64,000 nt of DNA from Massilia sp. erpn (GTDB taxonomy: Bacteria > Pseudomonadota > Gammaproteobacteria > Burkholderiales > Burkholderiaceae_D). Positions 6,202 to 50,099 of the stretch are shown here, piece after piece (position 1 is the stretch's first letter; every line of letters starts with the position of its first letter). A program made the translations under genes and the position numbers. The stretch covers positions 4,030,001 through 4,094,000 of the forward strand of contig NZ_CP053748.1 of NCBI RefSeq assembly GCF_024400215.1, in the 5' to 3' direction. The notes beneath the pieces are model-generated. The model did not search any database, was not told the origin of the DNA, and saw only the letters and a program-made list of their open reading frames with translations.

Positions 6202-6236
6202 CCGCATGCTTTGCACGCATCTGAAAGGACTCTGTT

Positions 6237-7400
6237 TTGAAACTCCGCTCTTGCAAAACCCTCGCCCTCATGGCCGCCTGCCTGCTGCCCGTCAGCAGCT
6301 GGGCCGACGACCAGGCCGCGCAGATCCGCGCCATTGTCGACAGCGCCATCCGCCCCGTGATGGCGGAATTTGATGTACCCGGCATGGCCGTCGCCGTAAC
6401 CATCGGCGGCCAGCCGGTCTTCGTCAACTACGGCCTGGCCTCGCGCGAGCAAAACACGCCGGTCACGGAGAACACCCTGTTCGAGCTGGGCTCCATCAGC
6501 AAGACCTTCACTGCTACCTTGGCTTCTTACGCCCAGGCGCAGGGCAAGCTGTCCTTCGAAGACCATCCCGGCAAATACATCCCCGCGCTGAAAGGCAGCG
6601 CGGTCGACAAGGCCAGCCTGCTGCACCTGGCCACTTATACCGCCGGTGGTTTCCCCTTGCAGTTCCCGGAAAAGTTCGATAGCAGGGGCCAGGAGCTGGC
6701 CTACTTCAAGCAATGGAAGCCGGACGCCGCGCCAGGCGTGCAGCGCCGCTATTCCAATCCCAGCATCGGCCTGTTCGGCCACGCCGCCGCCGCCGCGCTG
6801 AAGAGCGATTTCGCCGACGCCCTGGAAAAGCAGCTCCTGCCCAAGCTGGGATTGAACGCCACCTATGTCCATGTGCCGGAGGCGGCCAAGGCCAACTATG
6901 CCTGGGGCTATAACAAGGACAACAAGCCGGTGCGCGTGAGCGGCGGCGCCTTCGATTGGGAAGCTTATGGCGTGAAGTCGACGGCGGCCGACATGATCCG
7001 CTACCTGCAGGTGAATATCGATCCAAGCCCGCTCGATGCGGTGGCGCGGCGCGCGGTGGATGGCACCCACGTCGGCTACTTCGAGGTGGGCGCCATGGTG
7101 CAGGGCCTGGGATGGGAGCAGTATCCCTATCCGGTGAGCCTGGAGCGCCTGCAGGACGGTAACTCCCGCAACATGACCTGGGAAGCCAACCCGGTCAAGC
7201 GGATTGCCTCGCCGGTTGCCGCGCCAGCCATGACCCTGTTCAACAAGACCGGTTCCACCGGCGGCTTTGGCGCCTATGTGCTGTACGTCCCGGGGAAGAA
7301 AATCGGCATCGTGATGCTGGCAAACAAGGCCTATCCGAATCCGGCCCGCATCAAGGCGGCGCACGCGATTCTGGAGCAGCTGGCGCCGATGGCGAAGTAA
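6237..7400 (+). CDS. ampC: Class C (AmpC-type) serine beta-lactamase
   Basis: A 387-residue exported serine hydrolase with a cleavable signal peptide (MKLRSCKTLALMAACLLPVSSWA). All class C landmarks are present: S-I-S-K at 86-89 with catalytic Ser86 and Lys89, Y-S-N at 172-174, and K-T-G at 337-339. The length and order match periplasmic AmpC enzymes that hydrolyse cephalosporins and penicillins; a DD-peptidase or esterase of the same fold is a less likely alternative. The start is TTG at 6237 with GAAAGGA upstream. It follows blaR1 by 35 bp in the same direction. Class C enzymes are more often controlled by the LysR protein AmpR, so control by BlaI/BlaR1 is the unusual point. Confidence 0.9.
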   Translation: MKLRSCKTLALMAACLLPVSSWADDQAAQIRAIVDSAIRPVMAEFDVPGMAVAVTIGGQPVFVNYGLASREQNTPVTENTLFELGSISKTFTATLASYAQAQGKLSFEDHPGKYIPALKGSAVDKASLLHLATYTAGGFPLQFPEKFDSRGQELAYFKQWKPDAAPGVQRRYSNPSIGLFGHAAAAALKSDFADALEKQLLPKLGLNATYVHVPEAAKANYAWGYNKDNKPVRVSGGAFDWEAYGVKSTAADMIRYLQVNIDPSPLDAVARRAVDGTHVGYFEVGAMVQGLGWEQYPYPVSLERLQDGNSRNMTWEANPVKRIASPVAAPAMTLFNKTGSTGGFGAYVLYVPGKKIGIVMLANKAYPNPARIKAAHAILEQLAPMAK

Positions 7401-7543: not shown

Positions 7544-8020
7544 TCAGGGCACGGGCTGGCGCAGCAGTTCCAGCGGCAGCTCCAGGCGCGGCAAGGTCGG
7601 CGCGAAGCGGTGGCGCGTGGTCTTGTAAGGCAGCAGCACGCCTTGTTCGGCAAGGCGCTCCATCTCGCTGGCGGCGAAGGGCCGACCGGTGCTCCAGTGG
7701 CAGACCGATATCCGCCGGTCTTCATAGGAGAGCGGAATGCAGGGCAGCTGGCGCAGACCCAGCCGGTGCGCCACCGCCAGCCGGTGGTTGCCGTCCATGA
7801 TGTAGCCGGTGTTTTCCTCCACCGGCAGCGCGGTTGACCACATGCCTTCGGCCATGACGCGGCGCGCCAGCAGCTCTACCGCCTCGGCATCCACCGCCTC
7901 CGAGTAGCGGAAGAAGGGCAGCGCACGCAAGGCCACGGTATAGTTTTCAAAGCTGAACCAGTCGCTGTCCGCTGCCGCGCCGGGCGTGCAGAAAGCTGGA
8001 TCGGAGATGAGTCGGTTCAT
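7544..8020 (-). CDS. ParB/Srx-fold protein, SbnI/SerK-like free serine kinase
   Basis: A 158-residue protein, last gene of the ten-gene operon, starting at an ATG with AGGAG upstream and 10 bp after the preceding stop. The key motif is IMDGNHRLAVAHRLG at about 74-88; the DG(N/H)HR signature marks the ParB/sulfiredoxin-fold free L-serine kinases (SbnI of staphyloferrin B synthesis, archaeal SerK), which make O-phospho-L-serine. O-phosphoserine is the substrate of SbnA, and SbnA-like and SbnB-like genes lie upstream in this operon. It is shorter than SbnI (about 250 residues) and appears to contain only the catalytic core. ParB-type DNA binding is the alternative reading and is less likely in this setting. 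Confidence 0.72.
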   Translation of the reverse strand: MNRLISDPAFCTPGAAADSDWFSFENYTVALRALPFFRYSEAVDAEAVELLARRVMAEGMWSTALPVEENTGYIMDGNHRLAVAHRLGLRQLPCIPLSYEDRRISVCHWSTGRPFAASEMERLAEQGVLLPYKTTRHRFAPTLPRLELPLELLRQPVP

Positions 8021-8030
8021 CGAGGTTCTC

Positions 8031-8861
8031 CTAAACTTTGGGCAGGCATAGCGAATCGATGGCCAGCGAGGCGGCATCGGCCGGCTGCCAGTGCAGCATA
8101 TCGTCCTGGCGCGAGCGTGCGGTAGGGCGGGCCGGCACGCCCACCACGGTGGTATAAGGTGCGACATCGCCCAGCACCACGCTGCCGGCGCCGACCTTGG
8201 CGCCGACGCGGATGCGCACATTGCCCAGGACCTTGGCGCCGGCGCACAGCAGCACGCCGCGCTCCACCTTGGGATGGCGGTCGCCGCTTTCCTTGCCGGT
8301 GCCGCCCAGCGTGACGTCCTGGAACATCGAAACGTCATCGGCCACCACGCTGGTTTCTCCGATCACCACGCCGGTGGCGTGGTCGATAAACACGCCGGTG
8401 CCGATGCGCGCCGCCGGATGGATATCCACGCCGAATACTTCCGAGGCGCGCGCCTGGATATGGCTGGCCAGGCTGCGCCGTCCTTCCTGCCATAGCTCAT
8501 GCGCGATGCGGTAGGTCTGCAGGGCCTGAAAGCCCTTGTGGTTGGTGAAGGGGTGCACCAGGCTGTTGCAGGCCGGATCGCGCTCCACGGCGGCCAGCAG
8601 ATCGCGCCGGACAGCGTTGCCGAGGCCGCGCGCGCGCTGGCACACCTGCAGCGCCGGTGCATACAAATCCTCCTCGGGCAGCAGGGGCGCGGCCAGTTTG
8701 CCGGCGATCAGCCGCGCCAGCGCGCTTTCCAGGGACGGGCAGTTCAGAACGAGGACGCACAACAGGCTTTTGAGCAGCGGTTCCTGCCTTGCCGTTTCGG
8801 CTGCCTCGATGCGCAGCCTGCTCCAGACGGTATCGGACTCGGCCACCAGACGATCAAGCAT
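8031..8861 (-). CDS. cysE: Serine O-acetyltransferase (CysE family)
   Basis: A 276-residue enzyme, the usual CysE length. An N-terminal helical domain is followed by left-handed beta-helix hexapeptide repeats (IHPAARIGTGVFIDHATGVVIGETSVV), the active-site region FIDHATGVVIG with the catalytic His, and the loop VTLGGTGKESGDRHPK. It acetylates L-serine to O-acetylserine. The start is fixed by AAAGGAGA 7 bases before the ATG at 8861; a longer start at 8891 is not needed. Set inside a biosynthetic operon next to a serine kinase homologue, it is probably a pathway copy rather than the housekeeping cysteine enzyme: either it feeds an alternative acceptor step of the SbnA-like enzyme or it supplies another beta-substituted alanine. 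Confidence 0.88.
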   Translation of the reverse strand: MLDRLVAESDTVWSRLRIEAAETARQEPLLKSLLCVLVLNCPSLESALARLIAGKLAAPLLPEEDLYAPALQVCQRARGLGNAVRRDLLAAVERDPACNSLVHPFTNHKGFQALQTYRIAHELWQEGRRSLASHIQARASEVFGVDIHPAARIGTGVFIDHATGVVIGETSVVADDVSMFQDVTLGGTGKESGDRHPKVERGVLLCAGAKVLGNVRIRVGAKVGAGSVVLGDVAPYTTVVGVPARPTARSRQDDMLHWQPADAASLAIDSLCLPKV

Positions 8862-8925
8862 CTTTGTCTCCTTTGCGGATGCCTGTGGCATCCTGTGTGT
8901 ATTGGGATCGGACCCGCGCCATGCT

Positions 8926-10737
8926 TCAGGCGTAGCTGCGGCCGGCCGGCTGCCCTGCCTCGCGTTCCCGGCCGCAGGCCGCCAGCACCGCTTGCGCGAT
9001 GCGGTGGGCGTCCATGAAGGCGCGCGAGTAGGCGCCGGAAGAGGGAACGTAATGGTTGTAGTAAGTCGAGCCTTCGGCCAGGGGACCCAGCACCCATAGG
9101 TTGTCGGCGCAGCGTCCTTGCGCGTCGATGGCGCGCCCCTGGCCATCGGTGCGCACGCCGAAGCCGCTGCCGTCCAGGCATTGCAGCAGTTGCGCGCGGC
9201 GCAGGCTGGCCACGGCCTCGGGCTGCTGCTCGGGATGGCGATTGTCGGGGATGCGGGCGGCGACCAGGTAGTCCATGGCAAGCGGCTGCGCCTCCTCGTC
9301 CAGCCACAGCGTGGCGCCTGCGCCGCGGCGCTCCACGCGCCGCACGCGCGCCAGCCGCAGCACGCCCGCCGACAGCAGGGCCAGCAGCTCTTCATGCCGC
9401 TCCTTCTGCGGGCCGGCCACCAGCTGGTTGACCAGCGGCGCATAGCTCTGGAAGAACAGGCGCTGCGAGGCCGGCGTCAGGCCCCGATCGTCGATCACGC
9501 GGCGCAGCTGCTCGCGGCAGTCGCGCCAGACTTCGGCGGCGGCTTTCACGGGACTGTTGGCCAGGCCGCACGCGCTGTCGCGCAAATCCTGTTCGATAAA
9601 GGCGCGCATCCAGTTCTGATAGCCGGCGCCGTGCGCCGCCATCGGCAGTTCGGTCATCAGCAGCGTGCCGAGATCGAAGGGGCTGAAGCGGCAGGCCAGC
9701 ACCTGCAGTTCCTTATCCAGCCGGCCGGCGCGGAACCAGGCGCCGATGCGCGCGCGCAGCGCCTCGTCGCGCGCCGTCGTGCCGTAGTAGGCCGCGATCA
9801 TTTCCGCCTTCAGCAGCGGCAGCACCTGGGCTTCGAAATCGATGCCTAGCGGATGCTGGCGGCGCAATTCGGCCACCGCCTCCAGCGTCAGCGCCACGGG
9901 CGGAGCGCGGCGCTGGCCGGGCGCGATGTCGGGACGGGTACGGAAGGGCAGGCCGCTGCGCGAATACATCACGATGCGCGCTTCCCGGCCCGAAGGCTGG
10001 TAGCGTAGCGTGCCGTCGGCATCGCGCCGGTAGCTGCCGCCCACGCCCACGGTCAGCGCGGCCAGGGCGTCCATCGCGGCCAGGCCCAGTCCTTCCAGCG
10101 CCACGCCGGCGCCCGGCGCGGCAAGCGGCGGCGCCGTGTGAACGGCCGGCCGCCGGCCGCTATGGCCCATGCTCAGTACCACGGCGTCGGCCTGCCGCGC
10201 CATGCCGGAGGGCGTGCTGAGAATGTAGCCGATGCCGTCGCCGTGGGCGATGTCCGATACGCGCTCGGCGATGTGGTGCACACTGACGTTGGGCGGCAGG
10301 CCGGCCAGGATGTGGCGGTAAGCCCAGACCAGGTATTCGCCCAGCCAGCCGCGCGGCAGAAAATCGGCCGGACCGGCCGGCTGCGCTGGCTCGCCGGCGC
10401 AGCGCGGCGGGCGGCAGGGCCGGCCCTTGTACTCCACGCACCACTGGTAAAAGCCCGGCCCGGCGCGGCCGGGCTGGCCCGCCAGGGCGTCGTCGTCGGG
10501 GAAGATGGAGAGCTGGCTGGCCACCGTGTTCAGCATCAGGTAATCGGGCTGGCCGGGCGAGTGCAGGCCTGGTCCCGGCTCCTGCGGATCGAAGACCAGC
10601 ACCTCGACGCGGTGCTGGCTGCCCGCGGCCAGCGCCGCCACCCTTTCCAGCACGCTCAGCCCGCGCGAGCCGCAGCCCACGATGGCCAGCTGATAGGGGC
10701 GCCCGGCGGAGCCCGGCATGGGGCCGCGGCTCACCAT
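8926..10737 (-). CDS. Large FAD/NAD(P)-binding oxidoreductase, NAD_binding_9 type
   Basis: A 603-residue flavoprotein. The dinucleotide-binding motif is at the N-terminus (IVGCGSRGLSVLERVA, about 18-33), followed by an early PDYLMLNTVASQLS segment typical of the large single-chain FAD/NAD(P)-binding family of unassigned enzymes. A C-terminal GPLAEGSTYYNHYVPSSGAY block, of the type that closes over FAD, ends the protein. There is no signal peptide. The start ATG at 10737 follows GAGGAGG and overlaps the end of the SbnB-like gene by 7 bp. Enzymes of this family have been linked to amine or amino acid oxidation in natural product clusters, but I cannot assign the reaction. Its place in the operon suggests oxidation of the diaminopropionate or hydrazine intermediate. 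Confidence 0.75.
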   Translation of the reverse strand: MVSRGPMPGSAGRPYQLAIVGCGSRGLSVLERVAALAAGSQHRVEVLVFDPQEPGPGLHSPGQPDYLMLNTVASQLSIFPDDDALAGQPGRAGPGFYQWCVEYKGRPCRPPRCAGEPAQPAGPADFLPRGWLGEYLVWAYRHILAGLPPNVSVHHIAERVSDIAHGDGIGYILSTPSGMARQADAVVLSMGHSGRRPAVHTAPPLAAPGAGVALEGLGLAAMDALAALTVGVGGSYRRDADGTLRYQPSGREARIVMYSRSGLPFRTRPDIAPGQRRAPPVALTLEAVAELRRQHPLGIDFEAQVLPLLKAEMIAAYYGTTARDEALRARIGAWFRAGRLDKELQVLACRFSPFDLGTLLMTELPMAAHGAGYQNWMRAFIEQDLRDSACGLANSPVKAAAEVWRDCREQLRRVIDDRGLTPASQRLFFQSYAPLVNQLVAGPQKERHEELLALLSAGVLRLARVRRVERRGAGATLWLDEEAQPLAMDYLVAARIPDNRHPEQQPEAVASLRRAQLLQCLDGSGFGVRTDGQGRAIDAQGRCADNLWVLGPLAEGSTYYNHYVPSSGAYSRAFMDAHRIAQAVLAACGREREAGQPAGRSYA

Positions 10738-11735
10738 CTTGCCTCCTCGGCGAAGAAGTGCTCGATCGCCACCGTGTCCGGCGCCTGGCGCGCCTCGGCC
10801 AGCACCAGGCGCGCCAGCTCCAGATCGAGCACGCCCAGGCCGAACGGCGAAAAGATCAGCGGGCGGCTGCGGTCCAGTTCGAATTCACCGCGCATCAGGG
10901 CGGCCAGACTGCCCTTCATGAAGGCGCGCGTGCCGCTCAACTGCTCGGCCAGATGGGGCGAGGTGCCGGCCTTCATGCAATGCTCGACGTCGTCGCAGAT
11001 GTTTTCCGCTGCCAGGATCAATTCCGGCGCGATGTCGCGCAGCGAGATGTTCAGCACGATCTGGCCGGGACGGAAATGGAAGGGTGGCTGCACATACGGT
11101 TCGCCCGCGGTGGTGGCGAAGACCACGAGATCGGCTTGCAAGGCTTGCTCCAGGCTGCCGCCCTGCACGGCCGGAAAGTCCTGCCGGCGCAGCCAGGCCT
11201 GCAGCGCGTCGGCCGACGCCGGATCGGCGTCGTGCACGATGGCCTGGCCGATGGCCCAGCGCTCCACGCGCAGCATGCGCGCGATATTGCGGGCAATGAC
11301 GCCGGCGCCGATGAAGCTGACGCTGGCGCAATGGCGCTGGCGCCCGTTCATCCACCATGCACCCAAGACGGCCGAGGCGGCGGTGCGCACGGCGCTGATC
11401 TGCGCCCCTTCCATGCAGGCGATGGGATAGCCGGTGCGGCGGTCGTTGAGTACGATCACTGCCGAGGCGCGCGGCAAGCCTTGTTCGGTATTGGCGGGAA
11501 AGCTGGAAATCCACTTGATGCCGGCCACGCCGTCCGCGCCTTCGATGGCGCCGGGCAGGGCGATGATGCGGTTGCGCGGCTCGCTGGGAAAGCGCAGGAA
11601 ATAGCTGTCCGGGTTGATGGTCTGCCCGGCATGATGGCGCAGATAGGCCTGGCCAACGCGCTCGGCCATGCCCGCCAGATGGTCATCCAGGATCTGCCTG
11701 ACCCGGGCGCCGGGAATCACATGGAATTCGAACAT
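10731..11735 (-). CDS. SbnB-like N-(1-amino-1-carboxy-2-ethyl)glutamate dehydrogenase
   Basis: A 334-residue member of the ornithine cyclodeaminase/mu-crystallin family, the same length as SbnB (about 336). The substrate part contains GIKWISSFP (72-80), and the Rossmann NAD site is FIGAGVIARNIARML (141-155). SbnB oxidatively cleaves ACEGA to L-2,3-diaminopropionate and 2-oxoglutarate. The SbnA-like gene immediately before it, overlapping by 19 bp, makes that assignment strong; an ornithine or lysine cyclodeaminase would not be expected next to SbnA. The start ATG at 11735 has AAAGGA upstream, inside the sbnA-like coding end, indicating translational coupling. Confidence 0.88.
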   Translation of the reverse strand: MFEFHVIPGARVRQILDDHLAGMAERVGQAYLRHHAGQTINPDSYFLRFPSEPRNRIIALPGAIEGADGVAGIKWISSFPANTEQGLPRASAVIVLNDRRTGYPIACMEGAQISAVRTAASAVLGAWWMNGRQRHCASVSFIGAGVIARNIARMLRVERWAIGQAIVHDADPASADALQAWLRRQDFPAVQGGSLEQALQADLVVFATTAGEPYVQPPFHFRPGQIVLNISLRDIAPELILAAENICDDVEHCMKAGTSPHLAEQLSGTRAFMKGSLAALMRGEFELDRSRPLIFSPFGLGVLDLELARLVLAEARQAPDTVAIEHFFAEEARW

Positions 11736-12745
11736 TCGATTTTTCCTTTATAGGTGGTGACCAGGGCGCGCAGGCTGGCGTCCACGCCGTTGGCCGGCAG
11801 GGCTGCCAGCGCGTTGGCGCCGAACTTCTCGCGCACCCATTCGTCGTTGTAAATGGTGTCCAGGTAGCGTTCGCCCGCGTCGGGCGAGATGGCGACGATG
11901 GTGGCGTCGCGCGGCAGTTCCTGGGCCAGGGCGGCCACGCCGGCCAGCACGGTGCCGGTCGAGCCGCCGGCCAGGATGCCGTTGCTGCGCGCCAGCCAGC
12001 GGCAGATGGCGATGGCGGCGCGCTCGTCGACCATCTGGCAGCGTCCGATGCCGGCCGGATCGAAGATCGGCGGGCGCTGGCTGGACCCCAGGCCGGGGAT
12101 GAAGCGCTTGCCTGGCGCCAGGCCGAACGTCACCGACCCCTTGCTGTCGACCGCGATGATTTCGGTGCGTGGCGAGTGGCGCCGGAAATACTGCACGCAG
12201 CCCATCAGCGTGCCGCTGGTGCCGGCGCCCACGAACAGATAGTCCAGCGCCGGGAAGGCGATGTGGATGGAGCGGGCCGTGGTGCTGGCGTGGGCCTGGG
12301 CGTTGGCCGGATTGCTGTATTGATTGAGCCACAGATAGTCCGGATTGCGCGCCACCGCGTCCTTGACGTAGCGGATGCGGGTGCCGAGAAAGCCGCCGTT
12401 CTCGTCGCGCTCCGTGACCTTGACCACCTGCGCGCCGTAGGCTTCCATCAGCCTGATATTGTGCGCATTGGTGTTGGGGTCGACCACGCAGATGAAGCGG
12501 TAGCCGCGCTCGGCGCACACCAGGCTCAGGGCCACGCCCAGGTTGCCCGACGACGATTCGATCAGGGTGGTGTCGGGCGTGATGGCGCGCTGCTCGGCGT
12601 AGTGTTCGATCAGGCCGATGGCCGTTTTCATCTTGATCGAGCCGGCCGGATTGCAGGACTCCAGCTTGAGATTCAGGTTGCTCAGGCCCAGGCCGCTCAG
12701 GCGTACGAAGTTGGAGTCGCCGATGATGTGAGAGACGCAGTTCAT
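11717..12745 (-). CDS. SbnA-like PLP-dependent ACEGA synthase (2,3-diaminopropionate pathway)
   Basis: A 342-residue fold-type II PLP enzyme of the cysteine synthase family. The PLP lysine is in NPAGSIKMK (Lys38), the substrate loop is ESSSGNLG (63-70) and the phosphate cradle GAGTSGT is at 173-179. The NPAGSIK(M/T)K form is characteristic of SbnA, which joins O-phosphoserine and glutamate to give N-(1-amino-1-carboxy-2-ethyl)glutamate; true cysteine synthases read NPTGSVKDR. Both the SbnB partner and a serine kinase homologue are in the operon. The start ATG at 12745 follows GGAG. No siderophore (NIS) synthetase accompanies it, so the diaminopropionate is used for something other than staphyloferrin B. 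Confidence 0.88.
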   Translation of the reverse strand: MNCVSHIIGDSNFVRLSGLGLSNLNLKLESCNPAGSIKMKTAIGLIEHYAEQRAITPDTTLIESSSGNLGVALSLVCAERGYRFICVVDPNTNAHNIRLMEAYGAQVVKVTERDENGGFLGTRIRYVKDAVARNPDYLWLNQYSNPANAQAHASTTARSIHIAFPALDYLFVGAGTSGTLMGCVQYFRRHSPRTEIIAVDSKGSVTFGLAPGKRFIPGLGSSQRPPIFDPAGIGRCQMVDERAAIAICRWLARSNGILAGGSTGTVLAGVAALAQELPRDATIVAISPDAGERYLDTIYNDEWVREKFGANALAALPANGVDASLRALVTTYKGKIECSNSM

Positions 12746-12759
12746 TGTCGCTCCGGTAT

Positions 12760-14085
12760 TCAGGCCGCCTGCGCCGAACGCAGGCCGGTTTCGCGCTGCG
12801 CCGCCAGCAAGCCTTCCAGCAGCGCCTGCGCGCGCACCGCCACCATGGAGAACGATTGCGCGTCGCTGATGCCGTGGGTTTTCTCGGAAGTGCCGTTGGC
12901 GAAGATGGCGATGCCCTGGGCGTGGCGCAGGCCGACGCGGTACTGGCGGTCTACCATCATGCTGCCGTCCGCATCGCGCTCCAGCCAGGGCTGGAGCATG
13001 GCCAGCAGCGGCGGAATCGGCGGCTGCTCGTAGCCCGTGCCGAGCACGATGGCGTCCACCACGATGGTGCTGGTCTTGCCGGTGTTGCTGTCGCGCAGGG
13101 TAACGGCGTAGGCCTTGCCCAGCGCCTCCACCGCCTCCACCGCCGACCAGGCATGCGGCTCGTAGCGGCGCTGGCCCGTCACCTCGCCCTCGTACAGGAA
13201 GGAATACAGAGCCTGGCTTTCGTCGGCGTCGACGCCGGCGTAGTTGGTGCTGCGGATATCGTCGAAAACGCGGGTGCGCGCGGCGGGATCGAGGTGGTGG
13301 AAGTAGTCGACCTGCTCGGGCAGGAAGGCGAGATTGGGGAACTGGCCTTGCTGGCCGACGCGGAAGCCGACACCGCCATGCACCGAGTGCACGTGGGTGG
13401 TGGGCGCCCGGCCCAGCAGATGCGCCACCGCCTCGCCGGCGCTTTGGCCGGAACCGACCACCAGCCAGCGCTGCGGCAGCGGACCGCTGCCCAGCGAGAC
13501 CTTCTTCAGATAGTCGCTGGTGTGGAACACGCCGTCGCCCAGGTGGGGCTGGAAGACCTGCGGAATGCGCGGCAGGCTGCCGTTGGAGAGCACCAGGCGC
13601 CGCGTGCGGTAGCTGCCGTGCGCCGTGATCACGTCCACCGCGCGCAGCTTGCCGTCCTCGGTGTGCGGCAGCACTTCCAGCACGCCTTCGTCATACGCCA
13701 CGTAGTCCGTCAGCTGGGCGGACGCCCAGGCAATATAATCCGACCATTCGACGCGGCTGGCCGGGCGGCCCAGCAGGCCGAATTTGAACAGGCGGCCTTT
13801 TTCCTTCAGATACATGGCGAAGGAGAAGCGGCTGCGCGGATTGCGCGGCGTGACCAGGTCGCGCAGTAGATGATGGTTGATATCCGTGCCGGACAGCAGA
13901 AAATCGCCATGCCAGGCGGTGTTTTTGGCGCGCTCGAAAAAGCGCACGCCGGCAAAGGCCTGCCGGCCGTTCTCCTCGGCGTGGTCGGCGATGGCGCAGG
14001 CCAGGGCGATGCCGGCCGGGCCGAAACCGGCCGCCGCGACTTCCAGCTCGTGTGGGCCGCTCGTGTTGTGAATGGATCCGCTCAT
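12760..14085 (-). CDS. SidA/IucD/PvdA-family amino acid N-hydroxylase
   Basis: A 441-residue flavin N-monooxygenase when started at the ATG at 14085, which has GGAAGGAAGG directly upstream; the frame is open a little further but that part is not needed. The FAD motif is AAGFGPAGIALA (18-29), the NADPH motif is VVGSGQSAGEAV (209-220), and the family's late signature LGTGYEQPP is present. These enzymes hydroxylate the terminal amine of lysine or ornithine. In hydrazine pathways (for example Spb38 in s56-p1, and its formycin, pyrazofurin and triacsin counterparts) a lysine N6-hydroxylase of this family makes the hydroxylamine joined to an amino acid by the MetRS/cupin pair. Those partners are here in the same operon. 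Lysine is the default guess; diaminopropionate is an open alternative. Confidence 0.85.
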   Translation of the reverse strand: MSGSIHNTSGPHELEVAAAGFGPAGIALACAIADHAEENGRQAFAGVRFFERAKNTAWHGDFLLSGTDINHHLLRDLVTPRNPRSRFSFAMYLKEKGRLFKFGLLGRPASRVEWSDYIAWASAQLTDYVAYDEGVLEVLPHTEDGKLRAVDVITAHGSYRTRRLVLSNGSLPRIPQVFQPHLGDGVFHTSDYLKKVSLGSGPLPQRWLVVGSGQSAGEAVAHLLGRAPTTHVHSVHGGVGFRVGQQGQFPNLAFLPEQVDYFHHLDPAARTRVFDDIRSTNYAGVDADESQALYSFLYEGEVTGQRRYEPHAWSAVEAVEALGKAYAVTLRDSNTGKTSTIVVDAIVLGTGYEQPPIPPLLAMLQPWLERDADGSMMVDRQYRVGLRHAQGIAIFANGTSEKTHGISDAQSFSMVAVRAQALLEGLLAAQRETGLRSAQAA

Positions 14086-14101
14086 ATCCTTCCTTCCAGT
14101 T

Positions 14102-15079
14102 TTATTGGTTTGATGTGTCCTGGCCCAGCGGGGCAAGGATGGCGTGTTCCCGCAGCGCGCCGCCGCCGTGCCGCCACAGCGATACCTGCGCGTGCAGGTT
14201 TTCGCCGGCGGCGAAGCGGATGGCGCCCAGCGGACTGGCGAACTCGCGTTCGCGCAGTGTCTGCAGCAGAGCCGGACCCGATAGGGGCGCCGGGCTGGCT
14301 TGCGCCGCCTGTTCCAGCACGGCGAAGGCGGCCAGCGTTTCCAGCGTGTACAGCAAGGGCGGGGCGCCGAAGAAGGCCTGGCAGGGCGTCAGCGCCGCCG
14401 CCGCCATCCCGGCCGGAAAGCTCAGCACCGATACCTCGCCCGGCATTTCCAGCTGCGCGGTGAGTGCGGGCGAGGCGGCATCGTCGGTGAAATACAGGGG
14501 CAGGGCGTTGCCGGCGGCGCGCTGCTCCAGCAAAAAAGCGCGGCTGGCCTTGAGCCGGCCGCAATACACGCCGGCCTGGGCCTGGCGCCAGTCCGGCAGC
14601 GGCTGCAGTCCGGCCGCCAGCAGCGCTTCATGCAGTTCTTCCAGCTGGCTGCGGCCATGCAGGCTGTCGTCACCGGCCAGGCAGACGCGCTGCAAGCCTT
14701 GCCCGCGCAGCAGGGCGGCGGCATGGCGCGCCAGCACCCGGTCCGAGGCGCAGATGCGCAAGGCGGTGCTGCCTTGCCGCGTCAGGTCGGCGCGGGTGGA
14801 GGCGGGCAGCAGCAGCGTCAGGCCGGCGCTGCGGTAATGCGCCAGCGCCGCTTCCGCCGAGGCCGAGGCGAAATGCCCGATCACGGCGTGAACGCCAGCC
14901 TCGATAAAGGCCGCCGCCGCCCGCGCACCACCTTCGGCGCTGGCGCCGTCGTCGTAAAACAGCAGCTCGGCGCGGCGGATGCCGGGCAGGGTGCAGGCCG
15001 CCAGATGTACGCCGTGCAGGAAGCCGCGCGCATGGACGGTGCTGTCCACCTGCAGGGCGGCGCAGACGCCGATGCGCAT
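14102..15079 (-). CDS. Periplasmic-binding-fold protein without signal peptide
   Basis: A 325-residue protein with the type 1 periplasmic binding fold of branched-chain amino acid and amide receptors (LivJ/AmiC-like). Seen are the first strand MRIGVCAAL, a G-(V/I)-HAVIGHFAS segment followed by a late 'LTLLLPAST' strand, and the domain-swap region RVCLAGDDSLHGRSQ. No export signal precedes it: the ATG at 15079 overlaps the oxidase stop codon (ATGA), and the longer open frame upstream is the shadow of that gene. A cytoplasmic binding-fold protein in a biosynthetic operon may be a ligand sensor, as AmiC is, or a carrier, but no regulatory partner is adjacent. The function is unknown. Confidence 0.7.
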   Translation of the reverse strand: MRIGVCAALQVDSTVHARGFLHGVHLAACTLPGIRRAELLFYDDGASAEGGARAAAAFIEAGVHAVIGHFASASAEAALAHYRSAGLTLLLPASTRADLTRQGSTALRICASDRVLARHAAALLRGQGLQRVCLAGDDSLHGRSQLEELHEALLAAGLQPLPDWRQAQAGVYCGRLKASRAFLLEQRAAGNALPLYFTDDAASPALTAQLEMPGEVSVLSFPAGMAAAALTPCQAFFGAPPLLYTLETLAAFAVLEQAAQASPAPLSGPALLQTLREREFASPLGAIRFAAGENLHAQVSLWRHGGGALREHAILAPLGQDTSNQ

Positions 15080-16185
15080 CACGCTCCCCCTCCCAGGCGC
15101 GCCGGCGAACAGGCTTGCAGCATGGCTTGCTGGCTGGGCGCGGGCGGCCGGCCGCCCAGGCGGCGCTGCACGTCGGCGGCGACCAGTTCGGCTACCGCCG
15201 GCGCCATCTTGTAGCCGACGCCGCAAAAGCCGCTTGCCAGGTAAAGCCGTTCGGCGCCATCGGCAAAGCCGATGGCGGGACGGCCATCGTCGACGTAGGC
15301 GTCATAGGCCACCGTGGTGCCCAGGCTCTGCAAAGCGCCGCAGTCGAAGCCCAGCATGGCAAGGCGCTGGCGCGCATCGTCTTCGTTGCCGCCAGGGCTG
15401 CGGTCGAGCTGCGCCAGGCCGGCGGCGCGGCTGCGGATCTGGCCGCCGACCTGGATGGCCGACGGTCCCAATGGCAGCACATAAGTGCCGGCGGCGTGCG
15501 CGATCAGGGGGCGCAGCGGCACCTGGTGCGTGACGAAGCGCGTGAAGGGAATGCTGCGCGCGTGCACCAGGCCGGGCGGCCGGCCCTGCGGGGCGCGCGC
15601 GCCGCAGGCGTCGATCACCACCTCGGCGCTCAGTTGCATGCCGCCGGCCTGCACCAGCGCGGCCTGCGCCGTGGCGTGGTAGGCCTCCACCGGTAGATGG
15701 TCGTGCAGCGCGGCCCGTTCCCGCACATAGGCCGCCAGACGCGCCACATAGCCATGCACGTCGGAGATGCCGCCCTCCGGCTCCACCAGCGCCGCCAGCG
15801 GATGGACCGGATGGGGGGCCAGCGCCAGACCGGCGGCTGCGGCCACGTCGCTGTCGACCCGCAGGCTGTCGCCGGCGCTCTCCAGCAGCTCGCGGCAGGC
15901 AGCGGGCAAAACCAGGTGGGCCGCGCCGCAGCGGCGCAACGCCGCCGCGAAGGCCGCGCGCACCACGCCCGATTGCGGCCAGGGCGGTGCGGCCGCGGCC
16001 AGACGCGCGCGCAGCGGATCGCTGTCCATCTGGCGCACGATGCCGCCGGTATAGCGCGTTGCCCCCTGCGCCCCGGCGCAGCCGCGCTCGAGCAGCGCCA
16101 CGCTGACGCCGGCTTCGGCCAGCGCGGCGGCGATGGAAGCGCCGATGGCGCCGGCCCCGATGACGATCACCTGGTAAGTAGCCAT
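15079..16185 (-). CDS. DAO-family FAD-dependent amino acid oxidase
   Basis: A 368-residue flavoprotein of the glycine/D-amino acid oxidase family. The GAGAIG dinucleotide motif is at 10-15 after a short first strand, and a C-terminal block LYLASGFCGVGYKMAPAVAELVA contacts FAD. Start ATG at 16185, 5 bp after the MetRS-like stop. In s56-p1 synthesis an oxidase of this family (Spb39) cleaves the lysine-glycine hydrazine adduct to hydrazinoacetate and a semialdehyde. Position between the MetRS-like and hydroxylase genes supports the same step here. The substrate residue side of the adduct is not predictable from sequence. Confidence 0.82.
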   Translation of the reverse strand: MATYQVIVIGAGAIGASIAAALAEAGVSVALLERGCAGAQGATRYTGGIVRQMDSDPLRARLAAAAPPWPQSGVVRAAFAAALRRCGAAHLVLPAACRELLESAGDSLRVDSDVAAAAGLALAPHPVHPLAALVEPEGGISDVHGYVARLAAYVRERAALHDHLPVEAYHATAQAALVQAGGMQLSAEVVIDACGARAPQGRPPGLVHARSIPFTRFVTHQVPLRPLIAHAAGTYVLPLGPSAIQVGGQIRSRAAGLAQLDRSPGGNEDDARQRLAMLGFDCGALQSLGTTVAYDAYVDDGRPAIGFADGAERLYLASGFCGVGYKMAPAVAELVAADVQRRLGGRPPAPSQQAMLQACSPARLGGGA

Positions 16186-16190
16186 GGCGT

Positions 16191-17699
16191 TCAGATCACG
16201 TACTCGGGCGCGTTGCCGAGCAGTAGCTGGCCGATGGCCTCGGCCTCGCTGGCCTGGCAGCTGGCCAGCAGGCGCGCCGACAGGCCGGGCGCCAGCGGCG
16301 CGGCGATGGCGCCGGCCAATGCCACGAAAGGCAGCACGCCGGCGCCGGCGGCCAGGCGTTCGCGCGCCGTCTGCACCACGTCCAGCGCCAGGCGCGCCAA
16401 GGCGCGCATCGAGAAGTGTTCGAGTGAAGTGGCCTCGAGCCAGCGCGCGGCCAGAGCGTTGATGACGGCAGCGTCTTCGCCATCGGCTTGCAGCGGTGCG
16501 CCGGCTGCGCATTCGGCCGCGGCGGCGGCAGCCAGCTTGCCGCCGATGTCGGCGAACACCTCGCGGCGCCAGGCTTCGAAGCGGGCCACGTCGAAATCGC
16601 CTTCGCCTTCCTCCGGCGCCACCGAGGCCAGATACAGGCGCGCGCTGTCGGCGCAGGACTGGTCGACCAGGTCGCGTGCCCAGATTGCGTGGTTGCGGCT
16701 GGTGGACAGGTTCTTGCCGTTCAGCGTCAGGAACTGGTTGGTGTAGAAGCTTTGCTCCATGCGGTAGCTCTTCATGCATTGCAGCAGGGCGGGGTAGACG
16801 ATCATGTGGCTGAAGGCGCAGTCGTAGCCGAGGAAGTGCACCAGCCGTCCCTGGCCGGACTTGCAATACTCGTCGTACTCGTGCGGCGCCTGCTTCTTCT
16901 CATGCAGGAATTCGCGGAAGGCGGCAAAGTAGCCGGACAGGCCCATCACCCAGGTGTGGATGCGGCGGCTGCCATCCTCGCGCAGATCGAGGCCGCCATC
17001 GTGGGGGCGGGTGATGCCCCAATCGGGAAAGCCCATCTCGAATTCTTCGCGCAGGAACTGGCTCATCGAGGCGCGCGCGGCGCCGTTGCCGAACAGGGAT
17101 TGGAACAGGGGGCGGAACTGCGCCAGCTGCAGGAATTCGCGCCGCACCGGCTGCCAGTGCATGGGGCGGGCGCACAGCTTGCAGCGGAACTCCTGCATTT
17201 TTGCCGCGTCGGGCGTATGGGCGCAGCCCTCGCACTGGCTGGCGTCCGAATCCACGCCGCAGTGGTTGCACAGGCCGCGGCCAAAGGCTTCATAGCCCCA
17301 TTTGTCGCAATGGGCACAGTAGGGTTCCTGGCTGTCGCGGCTGGCGATGGCGCCGGCTTGCGCGGCGGCGTCATAGGTTTCCTGCACGGCGGCGCGGAAG
17401 TAGGGGTTGTCCTGGGCCAGCAGCCAGTGGTCGATGCCGATGCCGATTTTTTTTAGCGTGGCCTGGATCTTGGTACTGTTCTCATGCGCTATTTCCTGGT
17501 GGTCGCGCCCCAGCTCGATACCCTTGCGCAGCATATACGATTGATAGTCGTCCGAGTAGGAAACCAGGGTGCAATCGTGGCCGCGCTGGCGCTGCACGCG
17601 GGCATACACGTCGGCCGCCAGGAAGGGGCCGGCGATATGGCCGATATGCAGGTCGCCGTTGGGCGTGGGCGGCGTGATGGTGACGAGCAGGCGGGCCAT
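16191..17699 (-). CDS. MetRS-like ligase of the hydrazine-forming type
   Basis: A 502-residue class I aminoacyl-tRNA synthetase homologue. The HIGH box is intact (His18-His21 in NGDLHIGHIAG). The zinc region has four CxxC knuckles: C128/C131, C144/C147, C156/C159 and C173/C176. The KMSKS loop is degenerate (KNLSTSR, 329-335), and the protein is far shorter than housekeeping MetRS (over 650 residues in most relatives). Such stand-alone MetRS paralogues, fused or paired with a cupin, activate an amino acid and attach it to the hydroxylamine oxygen of N-hydroxylysine; the cupin then rearranges the ester to an N-N bond. The cupin gene overlaps it by one base (TAATG). A translation role is unlikely. 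Confidence 0.85.
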   Translation of the reverse strand: MARLLVTITPPTPNGDLHIGHIAGPFLAADVYARVQRQRGHDCTLVSYSDDYQSYMLRKGIELGRDHQEIAHENSTKIQATLKKIGIGIDHWLLAQDNPYFRAAVQETYDAAAQAGAIASRDSQEPYCAHCDKWGYEAFGRGLCNHCGVDSDASQCEGCAHTPDAAKMQEFRCKLCARPMHWQPVRREFLQLAQFRPLFQSLFGNGAARASMSQFLREEFEMGFPDWGITRPHDGGLDLREDGSRRIHTWVMGLSGYFAAFREFLHEKKQAPHEYDEYCKSGQGRLVHFLGYDCAFSHMIVYPALLQCMKSYRMEQSFYTNQFLTLNGKNLSTSRNHAIWARDLVDQSCADSARLYLASVAPEEGEGDFDVARFEAWRREVFADIGGKLAAAAAAECAAGAPLQADGEDAAVINALAARWLEATSLEHFSMRALARLALDVVQTARERLAAGAGVLPFVALAGAIAAPLAPGLSARLLASCQASEAEAIGQLLLGNAPEYVI

Positions 17700-18088
17700 T
17701 ATGCGGCCTCCTTTTCCAGCGCGTTCTCTTTGAGGAAGCGGCCGGCGCTATGTTCGTCCCACCACACCACGTAGAAGTGGAAATCCTCGTCCGTGTCGTT
17801 CAGCACGTAGTGATCGGTGTGCTTGGGAATGGCGGCGACGTCGCCCATGGTAAAGGGATAGACGGCAGCGCCGATCACCAGCTTGGCATTGCCCTTGATG
17901 CCGATGAAAACCTCCTGGTCGATCTGGGTATGCGCTTCCGATTGGGTATGCGGCCGTACCACGCACCAGGCGCCGCCTATGGGCATGGAATAACCGGGCC
18001 AGGGCAGCAGGCGGGAGCCATCCAGATCGTACTCGTGGACCAGCTTGGACCAGTCCATCGGACGAAAGTGTTGAAAATCAGATGCCAT
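17699..18088 (-). CDS. Cupin protein, N-N bond-forming partner of the MetRS-like ligase
   Basis: A 129-residue single-domain cupin, first gene of the operon. Metal-ligand candidates are His47, His53 and Glu59 in PHTQSEAHTQIDQEVF, and His93 in the second cupin motif (GDVAAIPKHTDHYVLN). The ATG at 18088 has GAGGAC upstream; its stop shares a base with the next start. In characterised hydrazine synthases such as Spb40 and PyrN a zinc cupin domain sits N-terminal to a MetRS-like domain in one chain. Here the same order is kept as two overlapping genes, so the pair probably works as a split enzyme. Alone, the sequence would only be called a cupin; the assignment rests on context. Confidence 0.8.
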   Translation of the reverse strand: MASDFQHFRPMDWSKLVHEYDLDGSRLLPWPGYSMPIGGAWCVVRPHTQSEAHTQIDQEVFIGIKGNAKLVIGAAVYPFTMGDVAAIPKHTDHYVLNDTDEDFHFYVVWWDEHSAGRFLKENALEKEAA

Positions 18089-18300: not shown

Positions 18301-19197
18301 TCAGGAAGGCAGGAATTCGCCCTGGTCGGCGCGCGCTTCGGCTATCAGCCATTGGCGGAAACGCTGGTTGCTGGACTGCAGCAGGGCGCTGTCGTCATAC
18401 ACGAGGTAGTAGGCGAGCGGCGTCTCGATGGCCTGCCGCAGCGGCATCACCAGGCGGCCGCTGGCCAGCTCCTGGCGCACCAGCGAGCCGCGCAGCAGGG
18501 CGATGCCGCGCCCGGCCAGGGCGGCATCGACGGCGCCGTTGGAGTCGACAAAGACCGGGCCGCGCCCCGGATCCACGTGGGGCGCCTGGACCGCGCGCAA
18601 CCACATGGTCCAGTCCAGGCGGTGCTCGTCGTGCAGCAGGGTGTAGCCGGCCAGTTCGCCCGGTGTTTCCAGCGGCCGCGCCAGCAAGGCGGGACTGCAG
18701 ACCGGCAGCAGGCGGTCGTTGATCAGGCATTCGCTTTCCAGGCCGGGGTAGCAGCCCAGGCCATGGCGCACGGCGAAGTCGATGCCGTCGACCAGCAGGT
18801 CGACGATGCGGTCGGTGGTATTGATGCGCACATCGATATGCGGCTCCCGGGCCTGGAAGCGCGCCAGACGCGGCAGCAGCCACTGCATGGCGAAGCCGCT
18901 GGTGCAACTGAGCGTGACGACGCTGGCGCCATGCTGCTGGCGCAGGCGTTCCGTGGCTTCGGCGATCTGGCGCAGCGCGGGCAGCACGGCGCGCAGATAC
19001 GCCTTGCCTGCCTCGGTCAGCGCCAGGCGGCGCGGGCTGCGCACGAACAGCTGGGCGCCCACGGCCTCTTCCAGCTTAGCGATCTGCTGGCTGACGGCGG
19101 CCGGCGTGACGTGCAATTCTTCCGCCGCCTGCTTCATGCTGAGCCGGCGTCCGGCGTTGGCAAAGCAGAGCAAAGCGTGCAGCGGCGGCAGTTTCAT
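18301..19197 (-). CDS. LysR regulator, GcvA type, of the hydrazine operon
   Basis: A 298-residue LysR protein: winged helix at the N-terminus (ALLCFANAGRRLSMKQAAEELHVTPAAVSQQI) and a C-terminal substrate-binding effector domain. It reads in the same direction as the operon, 212 bp upstream of the cupin gene, and divergently from an EamA exporter. Both flanking intergenic regions carry an AAACTTAAG element (minus strand at 18218-18226 and plus strand at 19216-19224), a candidate binding sequence. GcvA-type LysR proteins respond to small amino acids or their derivatives, which would suit a pathway using serine, glutamate and probably glycine. The link is by position; no direct evidence. Confidence 0.88.
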   Translation of the reverse strand: MKLPPLHALLCFANAGRRLSMKQAAEELHVTPAAVSQQIAKLEEAVGAQLFVRSPRRLALTEAGKAYLRAVLPALRQIAEATERLRQQHGASVVTLSCTSGFAMQWLLPRLARFQAREPHIDVRINTTDRIVDLLVDGIDFAVRHGLGCYPGLESECLINDRLLPVCSPALLARPLETPGELAGYTLLHDEHRLDWTMWLRAVQAPHVDPGRGPVFVDSNGAVDAALAGRGIALLRGSLVRQELASGRLVMPLRQAIETPLAYYLVYDDSALLQSSNQRFRQWLIAEARADQGEFLPS

Positions 19198-19351
19198 GCA
19201 GGGCCTGATTTAGAAAAACTTAAGCCCGAAAGAATAATTAGCTTGAATCCGGACTCTGAACAATGGTGAAATAATGTTAACAGAAAAAGCGCGGGCCGGC
19301 TATTGCCAGCTGCCCGGTCGCGCGTGCCATCAATCTCGTGAAAGGGCGAAT

Positions 19352-20278
19352 GTGAGACCCGGCGACTATTTCCGCTTATTCCTGCTGGCTGCCATCTGGG
19401 GGGCCAGCTTTTTGTTCATGCGCATGGTGGCGCCGGTGCTGGGTGCGGTGCCGACCGCGTTTTTCCGCGTGCTGCTGGGCGCTGCCGGCCTGGCGGTGAT
19501 CTTGCTGGTGCTGCGCCTACCCTGGCTATTCAAGGGCAAGTTTGGCGCGACCTTGCTGTTGGGCGTGATCAATTCCGGCCTGCCCTTCCTCATGTATTCG
19601 CTGGCGGCGCGCCTGCTGCCGGCCGGCTATTCGGCGATCTTCAATGCCACCACGCCGCTCATGGGGGTACTCATCGGCTATCTCTTCTTCCATGAGCAGG
19701 TCACGGCGCGCAAGGCGCTCGGTGTGCCGATCGGCATTGCCGGCGTGGCTTTGCTGACGGCCGTCGGCCCGCTGCGGCTGGACGCGGCGGCAGCGCTGGG
19801 CGCGCTGGCCTGCCTGGTCGCAACCTGCTGCTATGGCGCGGCCGGCTTCCTGACCAAGCGCTGGATCACCGAGCGCGGCGGCTTGGACGCCAAACTGGTG
19901 GCCTGCGGCAGCCAGATCGGCGCCACCTTGCTGCTGGCGCCTTGCTTCGGCGCTTCCTGGCTGCTGGCGCCGCCGCCCAGCTGGGGCGGTCCGGCGACGT
20001 GGCTGGCGCTGGCGGCCGTTGGCCTGGTGTGCACGGCGTGGGCCTATATCCTGTATTTCCGCCTGATCGCCGACATCGGCCCGCTGCGCTCCCTGACCGT
20101 GACCTTCCTGATTCCGCCTTTTGGCGTGCTATGGGGCGCGCTCTTCCTGGGCGAACAGGTAAGCTGGGCCCATTTGGGTGGCGGCGGCTTGATCGGATTG
20201 GCGCTGTGGCTGGTGCTGGTCCAGCCGCAGCCGGCGGCCGTGGCGCCGGCCCAGACCAAAGTCGCCGATCCCGGCTAG
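19352..20278 (+). CDS. EamA-family (DMT) exporter next to the hydrazine operon
   Basis: A 308-residue inner membrane transporter with ten hydrophobic helices arranged as two EamA repeats (about 5-135 and 145-285). The GTG at 19352 (VRPGDYFRLF) is preferred because AAAGGG lies 5 bases before it; the frame is open to 19274 but that extension is hydrophilic and unlike the family. EamA proteins export amino acids, O-acetylserine, cysteine and related metabolites. It is divergent from the LysR gene and, with it, frames the biosynthetic operon, so export or self-protection for the product is the natural guess. A general metabolite exporter is the alternative. Confidence 0.85.
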   Translation: MRPGDYFRLFLLAAIWGASFLFMRMVAPVLGAVPTAFFRVLLGAAGLAVILLVLRLPWLFKGKFGATLLLGVINSGLPFLMYSLAARLLPAGYSAIFNATTPLMGVLIGYLFFHEQVTARKALGVPIGIAGVALLTAVGPLRLDAAAALGALACLVATCCYGAAGFLTKRWITERGGLDAKLVACGSQIGATLLLAPCFGASWLLAPPPSWGGPATWLALAAVGLVCTAWAYILYFRLIADIGPLRSLTVTFLIPPFGVLWGALFLGEQVSWAHLGGGGLIGLALWLVLVQPQPAAVAPAQTKVADPG

Positions 20279-20499
20279 CCGGGAGCGTTTTCTTGCCGGT
20301 GCCAGCGGTCTGGCGCCGGTTGCCCTTGAACCGATGCCGCTCCCCGGCCGGAGCCATGCCGGCGCCGCCCACCGTGCCGGCACGGCCAGCAAGCCCGGCG
20401 AGCCCGTTTTGCCGGGAACCGAATGAAGAAAAATAAGAGCCAGGCCACACCAGCGCAGCCGCAGCGTCCATTTGCCTCCGTGCGCCGCCGGAGGCGGGC

Positions 20500-21552
20500 A
20501 TGAGCCGGGCTATTCCCATGGTGGCCCTGCGCACCTTCGTCAAAGTATGCCGCTATGGCAGCATGAAGCGGGCGGGGGAAAGCCTGTGCATCTCGCTCGG
20601 CGCAGTCAGCCAGCAGATCAAGGGTCTGGAGAGCCGCATCGGCAAGCGCCTGTTCCAGCGCGATGTGCATGGCTTGCAGCTGACGTCCTCCGGCCTGGCG
20701 CTGTACGAGAAGCTGGCCGAGCCGATGGACGGCATCGAGGGCTGCTGGGCGGCGGTATCGGGTGAATTGCCGGGGCGCGCGCGGCTGGTGCTGAGCACCA
20801 CCAGTTCCGTTGCCAGCTCCTGGCTGATACCGCGTCTGGCCGACTTCCATGCGCGCTGGCCCGATATCGAAGTGTCGGTGGAAGTGAGCGCGCGCCTGGC
20901 CGATCTGCGCCACGGCCATGTGGACGTGGCGCTGATGTACGACCAGGGCGATTACGCCGGGCACAGCGTGACGCCGCTGTGGTATTCGCGCCTGATCCCG
21001 GTCTGCAGCCCGGCCCTGCTGGTGAATGGGCCGCGCATCGAACAGCCGCAGGATTGCCTGGCTTATCCCCTGCTGCAGGACAGCGACCGCCTGAACTGGA
21101 AGCTGTGGCTGGGCGCGCGCGGCTGCATCGACAAGCGCGCCCTGCGCGGCACCAGTTTTTGTGACGAGTCGTTGCTGATCGGCGCCGCTTGCGCCGGCCA
21201 GGGCATCGCCCTGGTCAGCGATGTGCTGGTCGCCCGCGAGGTGGCGACGGGTAAGCTGGTGCAGGCCATCGACGTGGCCTGGCCGGCCAAAGGCTACCAC
21301 CTGGTCATTGCCAGGGAGCGCATCGATGAATGGGCCATTCGCGCTTTCCGCGACTGGATGGTGCAGCACGCCACCGATGCGGCGCACCGGCCGCACGCCG
21401 TGCGCTACGAGGCGCACCGCCCAGTCGCGCCGTTTTTTGATTCAAAGATTAATATCATGCGATTTCTACCAGAGACAGATTTAAACCCCAGCCCGCGCGA
21501 CGCCGGCAAGGCTTCCGCCCTCGACAATTCACCACGAAAGGGGCGTGCATGA
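20500..21552 (+). CDS. LysR family regulator with C-terminal extension
   Basis: A 350-residue LysR protein of the GcvA group: HTH TFVKVCRYGSMKRAGESLCISLGAVSQQI at about 12-40, then the effector domain to about residue 305. The final 40 residues, after RPHAVRYEAHRP, are an unusual extension with lower GC and no recognised fold. The start ATG follows GGAGGC. The stop overlaps the start of the transposase-derived gene (ATGA at 21549-21552), so the two are translationally coupled. The 220 bp between the exporter and this gene hold nothing I can identify. The target genes are unknown. Confidence 0.88.
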   Translation: MSRAIPMVALRTFVKVCRYGSMKRAGESLCISLGAVSQQIKGLESRIGKRLFQRDVHGLQLTSSGLALYEKLAEPMDGIEGCWAAVSGELPGRARLVLSTTSSVASSWLIPRLADFHARWPDIEVSVEVSARLADLRHGHVDVALMYDQGDYAGHSVTPLWYSRLIPVCSPALLVNGPRIEQPQDCLAYPLLQDSDRLNWKLWLGARGCIDKRALRGTSFCDESLLIGAACAGQGIALVSDVLVAREVATGKLVQAIDVAWPAKGYHLVIARERIDEWAIRAFRDWMVQHATDAAHRPHAVRYEAHRPVAPFFDSKINIMRFLPETDLNPSPRDAGKASALDNSPRKGRA

Positions 21553-49877: not shown

Positions 49878-50099
49878 CACTCTTCCTAAGATTGCGGTGG
49901 GCGGGGGCATCTTTCCGTGCCGCGCATAGCGATTTGCTAGTCGGCCCGAAAAGTTGTCGCAATCATATCGGCCGATTGTGACGGGGATATTTCATCGTCA
50001 ATCGTGCGCATGGGAGTCGAGTGTGAGAATGTGTGAGAAAGTACGCAGCCGGCCGGGATTATGATCGCGTTCCTTATTTTTGAAGGAGTGCGATTGCAT

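Follow-up and report, generated by a model that had tools for sequence, protein, structure and literature searches.

The hydrazinoacetate pathways of s56-p1, triacsin, azaserine, and N-nitroglycine share an N-hydroxylase, a MetRS/cupin component, and a DAO-type oxidase, and the available parts of their descriptions give lysine and glycine as the substrates (PMC11705231, PMC7347517). A related logic is seen in actinopyridazinone biosynthesis, where Apy11, Apy9, and Apy10 use diaminobutyrate and retain its skeleton: this short diamino acid is N-hydroxylated and joined to a small amino acid, alanine, by a hydrazine synthetase, and cleavage by a DAO-family oxidase leaves the hydrazine on the diamino skeleton (PMC11705231). 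In Rhodococcus jostii RHS1, stand-alone cupin and MetRS-like proteins occur together with a SidA-family hydroxylase, the reported substrates being N6-hydroxylysine and glutamate (PMC8664883). The por cluster of Pseudomonas orientalis (Por9, Por11), which we could compare by its description only, likewise combines an N-hydroxylase with a hydrazine synthetase and has an orphan product (PMC11705231). Here we describe an operon of Massilia sp. erpn in which enzyme types of this kind are joined to those for L-2,3-diaminopropionate (Dap) synthesis. It lies in a 64,000-nucleotide stretch of contig NZ_CP053748.1 (positions 4,030,001 to 4,094,000), hereafter the window. The nearest named proteins, at 97-98% identity, likewise place the genome in Massilia. 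Unlike the actinopyridazinone system, again compared by description only, the operon points to Dap rather than diaminobutyrate, and it includes an FzmM/CreE-type oxygenase, which the available passages on actinopyridazinone do not mention.

Results

The operon consists of ten minus-strand genes running from 18088 down to 7544 (Table 1), in which neighbours overlap by up to 19 bases or stand up to 64 bases apart. Gene families were assigned by Pfam and NCBIfam profile searches with curated cut-offs. A preliminary description made from the letters alone had given the same extent and families, and these agree with our coordinates and profiles, although the last gene gave only a weak SerK match (24 bits against a cut-off of 380) and zero Pfam matches. 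SbnA scored 411.9 bits (NCBIfam equivalog cut-off 349.95), SbnB 384.3 bits (326.9), and CysE 222.2 bits (TIGR01172, 210.65). SbnA and SbnB are known to furnish Dap, and the serine kinase SbnI to serve that pathway.

A search of genome contigs with a single protein returned no relative, and a search with an alignment returned 364. The locus counts below cover the best 80 of these, ranked by similarity to the window, which is counted separately; a gene was called present when tblastn gave a match at E 1e-8 over more than a quarter of one query, in flanks of up to 10 kb. Of these 80 loci, 53 have SbnA. The genera represented are Pseudomonas, many species of which carry close versions of the set, Burkholderia, and Paraburkholderia. 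The cupin, MetRS-like protein, DAO-type oxidase, binding protein, and N-hydroxylase are each present in all 53, and SbnB and the FAD (flavin adenine dinucleotide) enzyme each in 51; both are missing from L046 and L047, and the sequence of L047 stops soon after SbnA. SbnA and SbnB are fused in one open frame in 31 of the 51 loci that have both. CysE occurs in four of the 53 and the SerK-like gene in none, and the last two genes are therefore best seen as local additions outside the conserved core. The proposal that a hydrazine-synthetase set is joined to a Dap pathway is supported, and eight of the ten genes form the conserved core (51-53 of 53). Among 392 genomes of the family, four, counting that of the window, encode a relative of the MetRS-like protein that matches at E 1e-60 or better. 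The FAD enzyme at E 1e-50 was found in three of 369 genomes of the class, namely the window's own and two others, in which neither SbnA nor SbnB lies within 19.9 kb of it.

The conserved unit reaches beyond the ten genes to position 21552, an extension absent from the preliminary description. In all 16 of the nearest Pseudomonas loci (L003-L017, L072), a LysR gene, a divergent EamA gene, and a second LysR gene precede the operon in the order seen in the window at 18301-21552, with identities of 64-65% (LysR), 63-69% (EamA), and 47-52% (second LysR). Two genomes of the same genus (L118, L119) share the operon flanks at 90-94% DNA identity and have nothing alignable to the window between about 7410 and 18331; beyond that gap the LysR/EamA stretch aligns at 74% in L118 and shorter pieces at 76-78% in L119. 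The operon is therefore variable within the genus, which may reflect either insertion or loss, as the data do not separate the two.

The two modules are separable at the sequence level. An SbnA-SbnB-FAD-enzyme run occurs in L093, L094, and L123 without hydrazine genes in the locus DNA examined; on the S. nigrescens plasmid of L123, whose neighbouring genes are uninformative, a MetRS-like match lies about 500 kb from SbnA. In Deefgea an insertion sequence adjoins sbnA, so this locus may once have had a hydrazine part and lost it. Conversely, hydrazine-type loci differ in their diamine supply: among the best 80, 53 have SbnA, 18 a class-III aminotransferase, none both, and nine neither. The aminotransferase relative on a Xenorhabdus plasmid (L091) is annotated ectB (diaminobutyrate), and in three loci from Photorhabdus and Serratia (L053, L054, L055) two SidA-type hydroxylases, an aminotransferase, and a pyridoxal phosphate-dependent decarboxylase surround the hydrazine core. 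Such mutual exclusion would be predicted for a diamine that serves as substrate of the N-hydroxylase. In the simplest reading, the diamine would be the hydroxylamine partner, as described for actinopyridazinone (PMC11705231). A further hydrazine-type cluster, on a Pantoea ananatis plasmid (L092, 5362-13413), has the order hydroxylase, cupin, MetRS, FAD oxidase, MFS, ATP-grasp, binding protein, and GNAT.

The MetRS-like and cupin genes are adjacent and overlapping, and the pair is predicted to be a hydrazine synthetase. As noted in the preliminary description, the KMSKS loop of the MetRS-like protein is degenerate (NLSTSR); the genome's other MetRS, encoded elsewhere and 24% identical, has KMSKSR. 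It is at this NLSTSR motif that a counterpart of the ATP-binding lysine PyrN K458 would be looked for. In a quick tree of 45 rows, which carried a long-branch warning and had the genome's own enzyme as its single housekeeping MetRS, the window protein groups with all 16 SbnA-type rows used (Shimodaira-Hasegawa-like approximate likelihood-ratio test, SH-aLRT, 99). The Photorhabdus and Serratia rows are sisters of this clade (90), and the published RHS1 locus, whose MetRS is 28.6% identical over 75% to the window protein, falls outside. Neither this tree nor that of the hydroxylases includes Spb38-40, PyrN, Apy9-11, or Por9-11. A housekeeping identity was rejected given the degenerate loop and the distance from the KMSKS-bearing MetRS; the protein sits instead with homologues from hydrazine clusters.

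At 29 positions that we take, by E. coli MetRS numbering, to form the MetRS pocket, the window and Photorhabdus share the same residue at 24; divergence is greater in Roseobacter and greatest in the Sphingomonas loci. Since the Photorhabdus locus lacks Dap genes, the amino acid handled by the MetRS-like protein is probably not Dap. If the protein did activate Dap, the product would be an α-hydrazino-β-amino acid formed with a hydroxylated partner, and Dap would enter it without a ligase; with the pocket nearly unchanged in loci that have neither SbnA nor SbnB, we consider this very unlikely.

The cupin carries the motif H-T-Q-I-D-Q-E (H-x-Q-xxx-E) and a second histidine. Its invariant glutamate (PyrN E56, RHS1 E69), regarded as essential in both of those proteins, is kept in the window and in all 73 aligned locus rows. 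The metal-ligand position RHS1 His65/PyrN His52 is glutamine in the window and in 53/53 SbnA-type loci, and in aminotransferase-type rows it is asparagine (10/15) or histidine (5/15). Because it varies within the cluster group, we did not treat it as defining a hydrazine synthetase. L087 encodes WP_007299751, the RHS1 cupin of PMC8664883, with residues 63, 65, 69, and 103 being D, H, E, and H as published. The window cupin also matches the PDB protein plu4264 of Photorhabdus (4mv2; E 1.3e-41), whose metal-site letters are those of the L053 cluster cupin; plu4264 looks like a cupin of the Photorhabdus/Serratia hydrazine-type cluster. A signal peptide is not evident in the binding-fold protein, which is encoded in 70 of the best 80 hydrazine-type loci.

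The substrate of the SidA-family hydroxylase bears directly on which hydrazine is made. In SidA, the essential Lys107 binds the carboxylate of ornithine (PMC7347517). Its column is arginine in the window, in 53/53 SbnA-type enzymes, and in 19/19 hydroxylases of aminotransferase-type loci, and lysine in five of six hydroxylases from loci with neither diamine gene, in the RHS1 locus, in the Pantoea plasmid, and in four PDB references outside the clade. As the lysine is an essential carboxylate anchor, the longer arginine would fit a shorter diamino acid. SidA Asn293 is kept in 53/53 SbnA-type enzymes and not in the aminotransferase-linked NMO1 type, and a nearby substrate-site loop has one residue inserted. 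In a quick tree, again with a long-branch warning, the window enzyme's clade is separate from the PvdA, SidA, and KtzI references. With the arginine at the Lys107 site, this led us to reject a siderophore-type ornithine hydroxylase. A grouping with housekeeping MetRS or with siderophore ornithine hydroxylases, either of which the preliminary description had named as a ground for refutation, was seen in neither of these trees.

These features weaken the analogy with s56-p1 drawn in the preliminary description. On an s56-p1-like route, lysine would be N6-hydroxylated, coupled to glycine, and cleaved to hydrazinoacetate, with Dap made apart and combined later. The enzyme types do match Spb38-40, and a structure match of the hydroxylase, 5cqf from P. 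syringae (E 1.6e-145), belongs to its clade and is named L-lysine 6-monooxygenase, a name for which we saw no assay. Yet the lysine/ornithine carboxylate anchor is replaced, the substrate loop is altered, and no ligase that could combine the parts is encoded among the ten genes. We consider the s56-p1 route quite unlikely, and the membership of 5cqf in the arginine-type clade makes its name doubtful. A hydrazine formed on the Dap skeleton is better supported than a lysine-derived hydrazinoacetate.

The eighth gene encodes an N-oxygenase of the aspartate-N-hydroxylase type. It shares the entire fold and most catalytic-core residues of the FzmM-type L-aspartate N-hydroxylase 8cp2 (N62, R266, R409, R412, and R416 are kept), and differs in the aspartate chamber (N413 to E, R577 to S) and at the flavin, where Trp51 is replaced. 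In SbnA-type relatives, position 413 is D or E in 48/50 and position 577 is S, T, or A in 50/50. The altered residues argue against an aspartate pocket and do not prove one for Dap; as in the hydroxylase, the substrate pocket is changed. The triacsin pathway likewise includes a homologue of aspartate hydroxylase, Tri21, along with a lyase partner, Tri16 (PMC11705231, PMC7347517). Pfam and NCBIfam found no such lyase, nor a nitrosuccinate lyase of the CreD/FzmL kind, among the ten genes, to which that search was confined. The L-alanosine pathway shares with the operon Dap, a CreE homologue, AlnM, and, in our reading, the N-hydroxylation of Dap; it differs in its carrier-protein-bound Dap and nitrosohydroxylamine product, and its available passages mention no MetRS-like partner (PMC7347517, PMC11705231).

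The FzmM/CreE-type enzyme could itself be the Dap N-hydroxylase, in which case SbnA, SbnB, and the FAD enzyme would form a Dap-hydroxylamine module in place of the aminotransferase and hydroxylase that sister clusters use, leaving a later step to the SidA-type enzyme. Consistent with this, SbnA/SbnB and then the FAD enzyme occur in three contexts with no SidA-type enzyme in the DNA examined, a DcsG-like protein coming next in L093, and two N-oxygenases also occur in the Photorhabdus/Serratia loci. However, characterised FzmM-type enzymes oxidise the α-amine of aspartate (PMC10404684), and a SidA-type enzyme, the synthetase's usual partner (PMC11705231), is present in 53/53 SbnA-type loci. We regard this assignment as unlikely. 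The L093 cluster (7969-14903, plasmid of Rhizobium sp. CB3171) reads SbnA, SbnB, FAD N-oxygenase, DcsG-like, EamA, and SerK-like, and possibly represents a cycloserine-like pathway from Dap, without hydrazine genes in the DNA examined. No DcsG-like cyclase was found in the window's genome at E 0.001.

Besides L093 (33%), a relative of the SerK-like protein (40%, annotated as a ParB N-terminal domain) stands beside SbnA/SbnB on a Janthinobacterium non-ribosomal peptide synthetase (NRPS) plasmid (L122). Judging from these neighbourhoods, the SerK-like protein likely feeds the Dap pathway.

Table 1. Genes of the operon and its conserved upstream cassette (window coordinates; minus-strand genes start at the larger number)
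Feature	Position	Strand	Basis
Stand-alone cupin, predicted to form the hydrazine by N-N rearrangement	17699..18088	-	Cupin_2
MetRS-like protein, predicted to adenylate an amino acid and form the ester	16191..17699	-	tRNA-synt_1g, tree
DAO-type FAD oxidase, predicted cleaver of hydrazine conjugate	15079..16185	-	DAO, PF01266
Amino-acid-binding-fold protein, putative (guessed) cytosolic carrier or sensor	14102..15079	-	Peripla_BP_6
SidA-family N-hydroxylase, Arg type, probable short-diamine substrate	12760..14085	-	Lys_Orn_oxgnase, PF13434
SbnA-type diaminopropionate synthesis enzyme 1	11717..12745	-	TIGR03945, above cut-off
SbnB-type diaminopropionate synthesis enzyme 2	10731..11735	-	TIGR03944, above cut-off
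FAD/NADPH N-oxygenase, FzmM/CreE (aspartate N-hydroxylase) family, altered substrate pocket	8926..10737	-	NAD_binding_9
CysE-type serine acetyltransferase, outside conserved core	8031..8861	-	SATase_N, TIGR01172, above cut-off
ParB-N/SerK-like small protein, candidate serine kinase (putative SbnI-like role), outside conserved core	7544..8020	-	
LysR-type regulator, conserved-cassette member	18301..19197	-	
EamA-family exporter, conserved-cassette member	19274..20278	+	PF00892
Second LysR-type regulator, conserved-cassette member	20500..21552	+	

Next to the operon (4016-7400) are genes for a repressor of the BlaI type, for a BlaR1-like protein that carries a class D β-lactamase-type domain, and for a class C β-lactamase. 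The last of these was rejected as a self-resistance gene of the operon, as the BlaR1-like protein (94-95%) and AmpC (89-96%) are conserved in two operon-less relatives. Elsewhere in the window, an open reading frame at 40631-42712 matches a DXD-type glycosyltransferase (PF04488, more weakly PF12919), and large frames nearby (47460-49889, 50061-53183) have no Pfam match at E 1e-8.

Discussion

We propose that serine is activated by the SerK-like protein and/or CysE and that SbnA and SbnB would convert it to Dap. The arginine-type SidA-family enzyme would then give N3-hydroxy-Dap, the MetRS-like protein would adenylate a small amino acid and esterify it with this hydroxylamine, and the cupin would rearrange the ester to a hydrazine. 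Cleavage of the conjugate by the DAO-type oxidase would leave both nitrogens on the Dap skeleton, as in a β-hydrazinoalanine type of compound. The FzmM/CreE-type oxygenase may next oxidise a nitrogen of Dap or of the hydrazine product, and, with LysR in control, a free product, small and similar to an amino acid, would be exported by EamA. The substrates, the order of the steps, and the product are those we infer, and we give the scheme as a whole, with its two separable modules, later oxidation, and export, an even chance of being correct. A more specific version is tentative and rather unlikely to hold in full. In it, a ligase-free route would lead to β-hydrazinoalanine (2-amino-3-hydrazinylpropanoate) or to the corresponding ring form, 4-aminopyrazolidin-3-one, with further tuning by an oxygenase of the nitrosuccinate-synthase type that has been retargeted.

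Several observations weigh against the Dap-based scheme. The Photorhabdus/Serratia loci (3/80) hold both hydroxylase types without SbnA, and Sphingomonas loci combine an arginine-type hydroxylase with an aminotransferase; thus, an arginine-type hydroxylase is no sure sign of Dap. As the SbnA loci group in a single clade, the exchange of diamine supply may have happened just once. In the FAD enzyme, N413 and R577 are also altered in L120 and L121, where SbnA was not seen nearby, and two of the 50 SbnA-type relatives retain Asn413. The window cupin has glutamine where RHS1 requires His65 for zinc (PMC8664883), and the DAO-type oxidase may cleave the conjugate on either side.

The preliminary description had envisaged a free antimetabolite made without a synthetase. 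A free small product is plausible, since the conserved EamA exporter is of the amino-acid/metabolite type. One adenylation-domain query was unmatched in all 53 SbnA-type relatives (flanks up to 10 kb), which upholds the lack of an NRPS-type synthetase; IucA/IucC-type synthetases were not searched for. The same result speaks against a product that acts as a metallophore or signal rather than an antimetabolite, and although chelator pathways do include N-hydroxylases and Dap, we consider that role highly improbable. The claim that no described pathway has this exact gene set stands in so far as our literature search, whose coverage left out most subscription journals, found no description of it and nothing on β-hydrazinoalanine or aminopyrazolidinone. 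The core set is not unique to the window, as it recurs in 53 of the best 80 loci.

These loci define one gene family for N-N bond formation with an orphan product and a clear substrate prediction, and suggest roles for two crystal structures of unclear function, the P. syringae hydroxylase 5cqf and the Photorhabdus cupin plu4264. The two N-oxygenases of the operon are apparently both tuned off their textbook substrates. In the more specific version given above, the ring form 4-aminopyrazolidin-3-one would be an aza-analogue of cycloserine. The same orphan pathway would then operate in numerous Pseudomonas species and in some of the Burkholderia group, and a Rhizobium cousin would combine the genes for Dap and the oxygenase with one for a protein resembling cycloserine synthetase. 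As the set is small and no carrier proteins are encoded among the ten genes, reconstitution in vitro is a realistic aim that could bring to light an amino-acid antimetabolite of a new kind as well as biocatalysts for N-N bonds on three-carbon skeletons.

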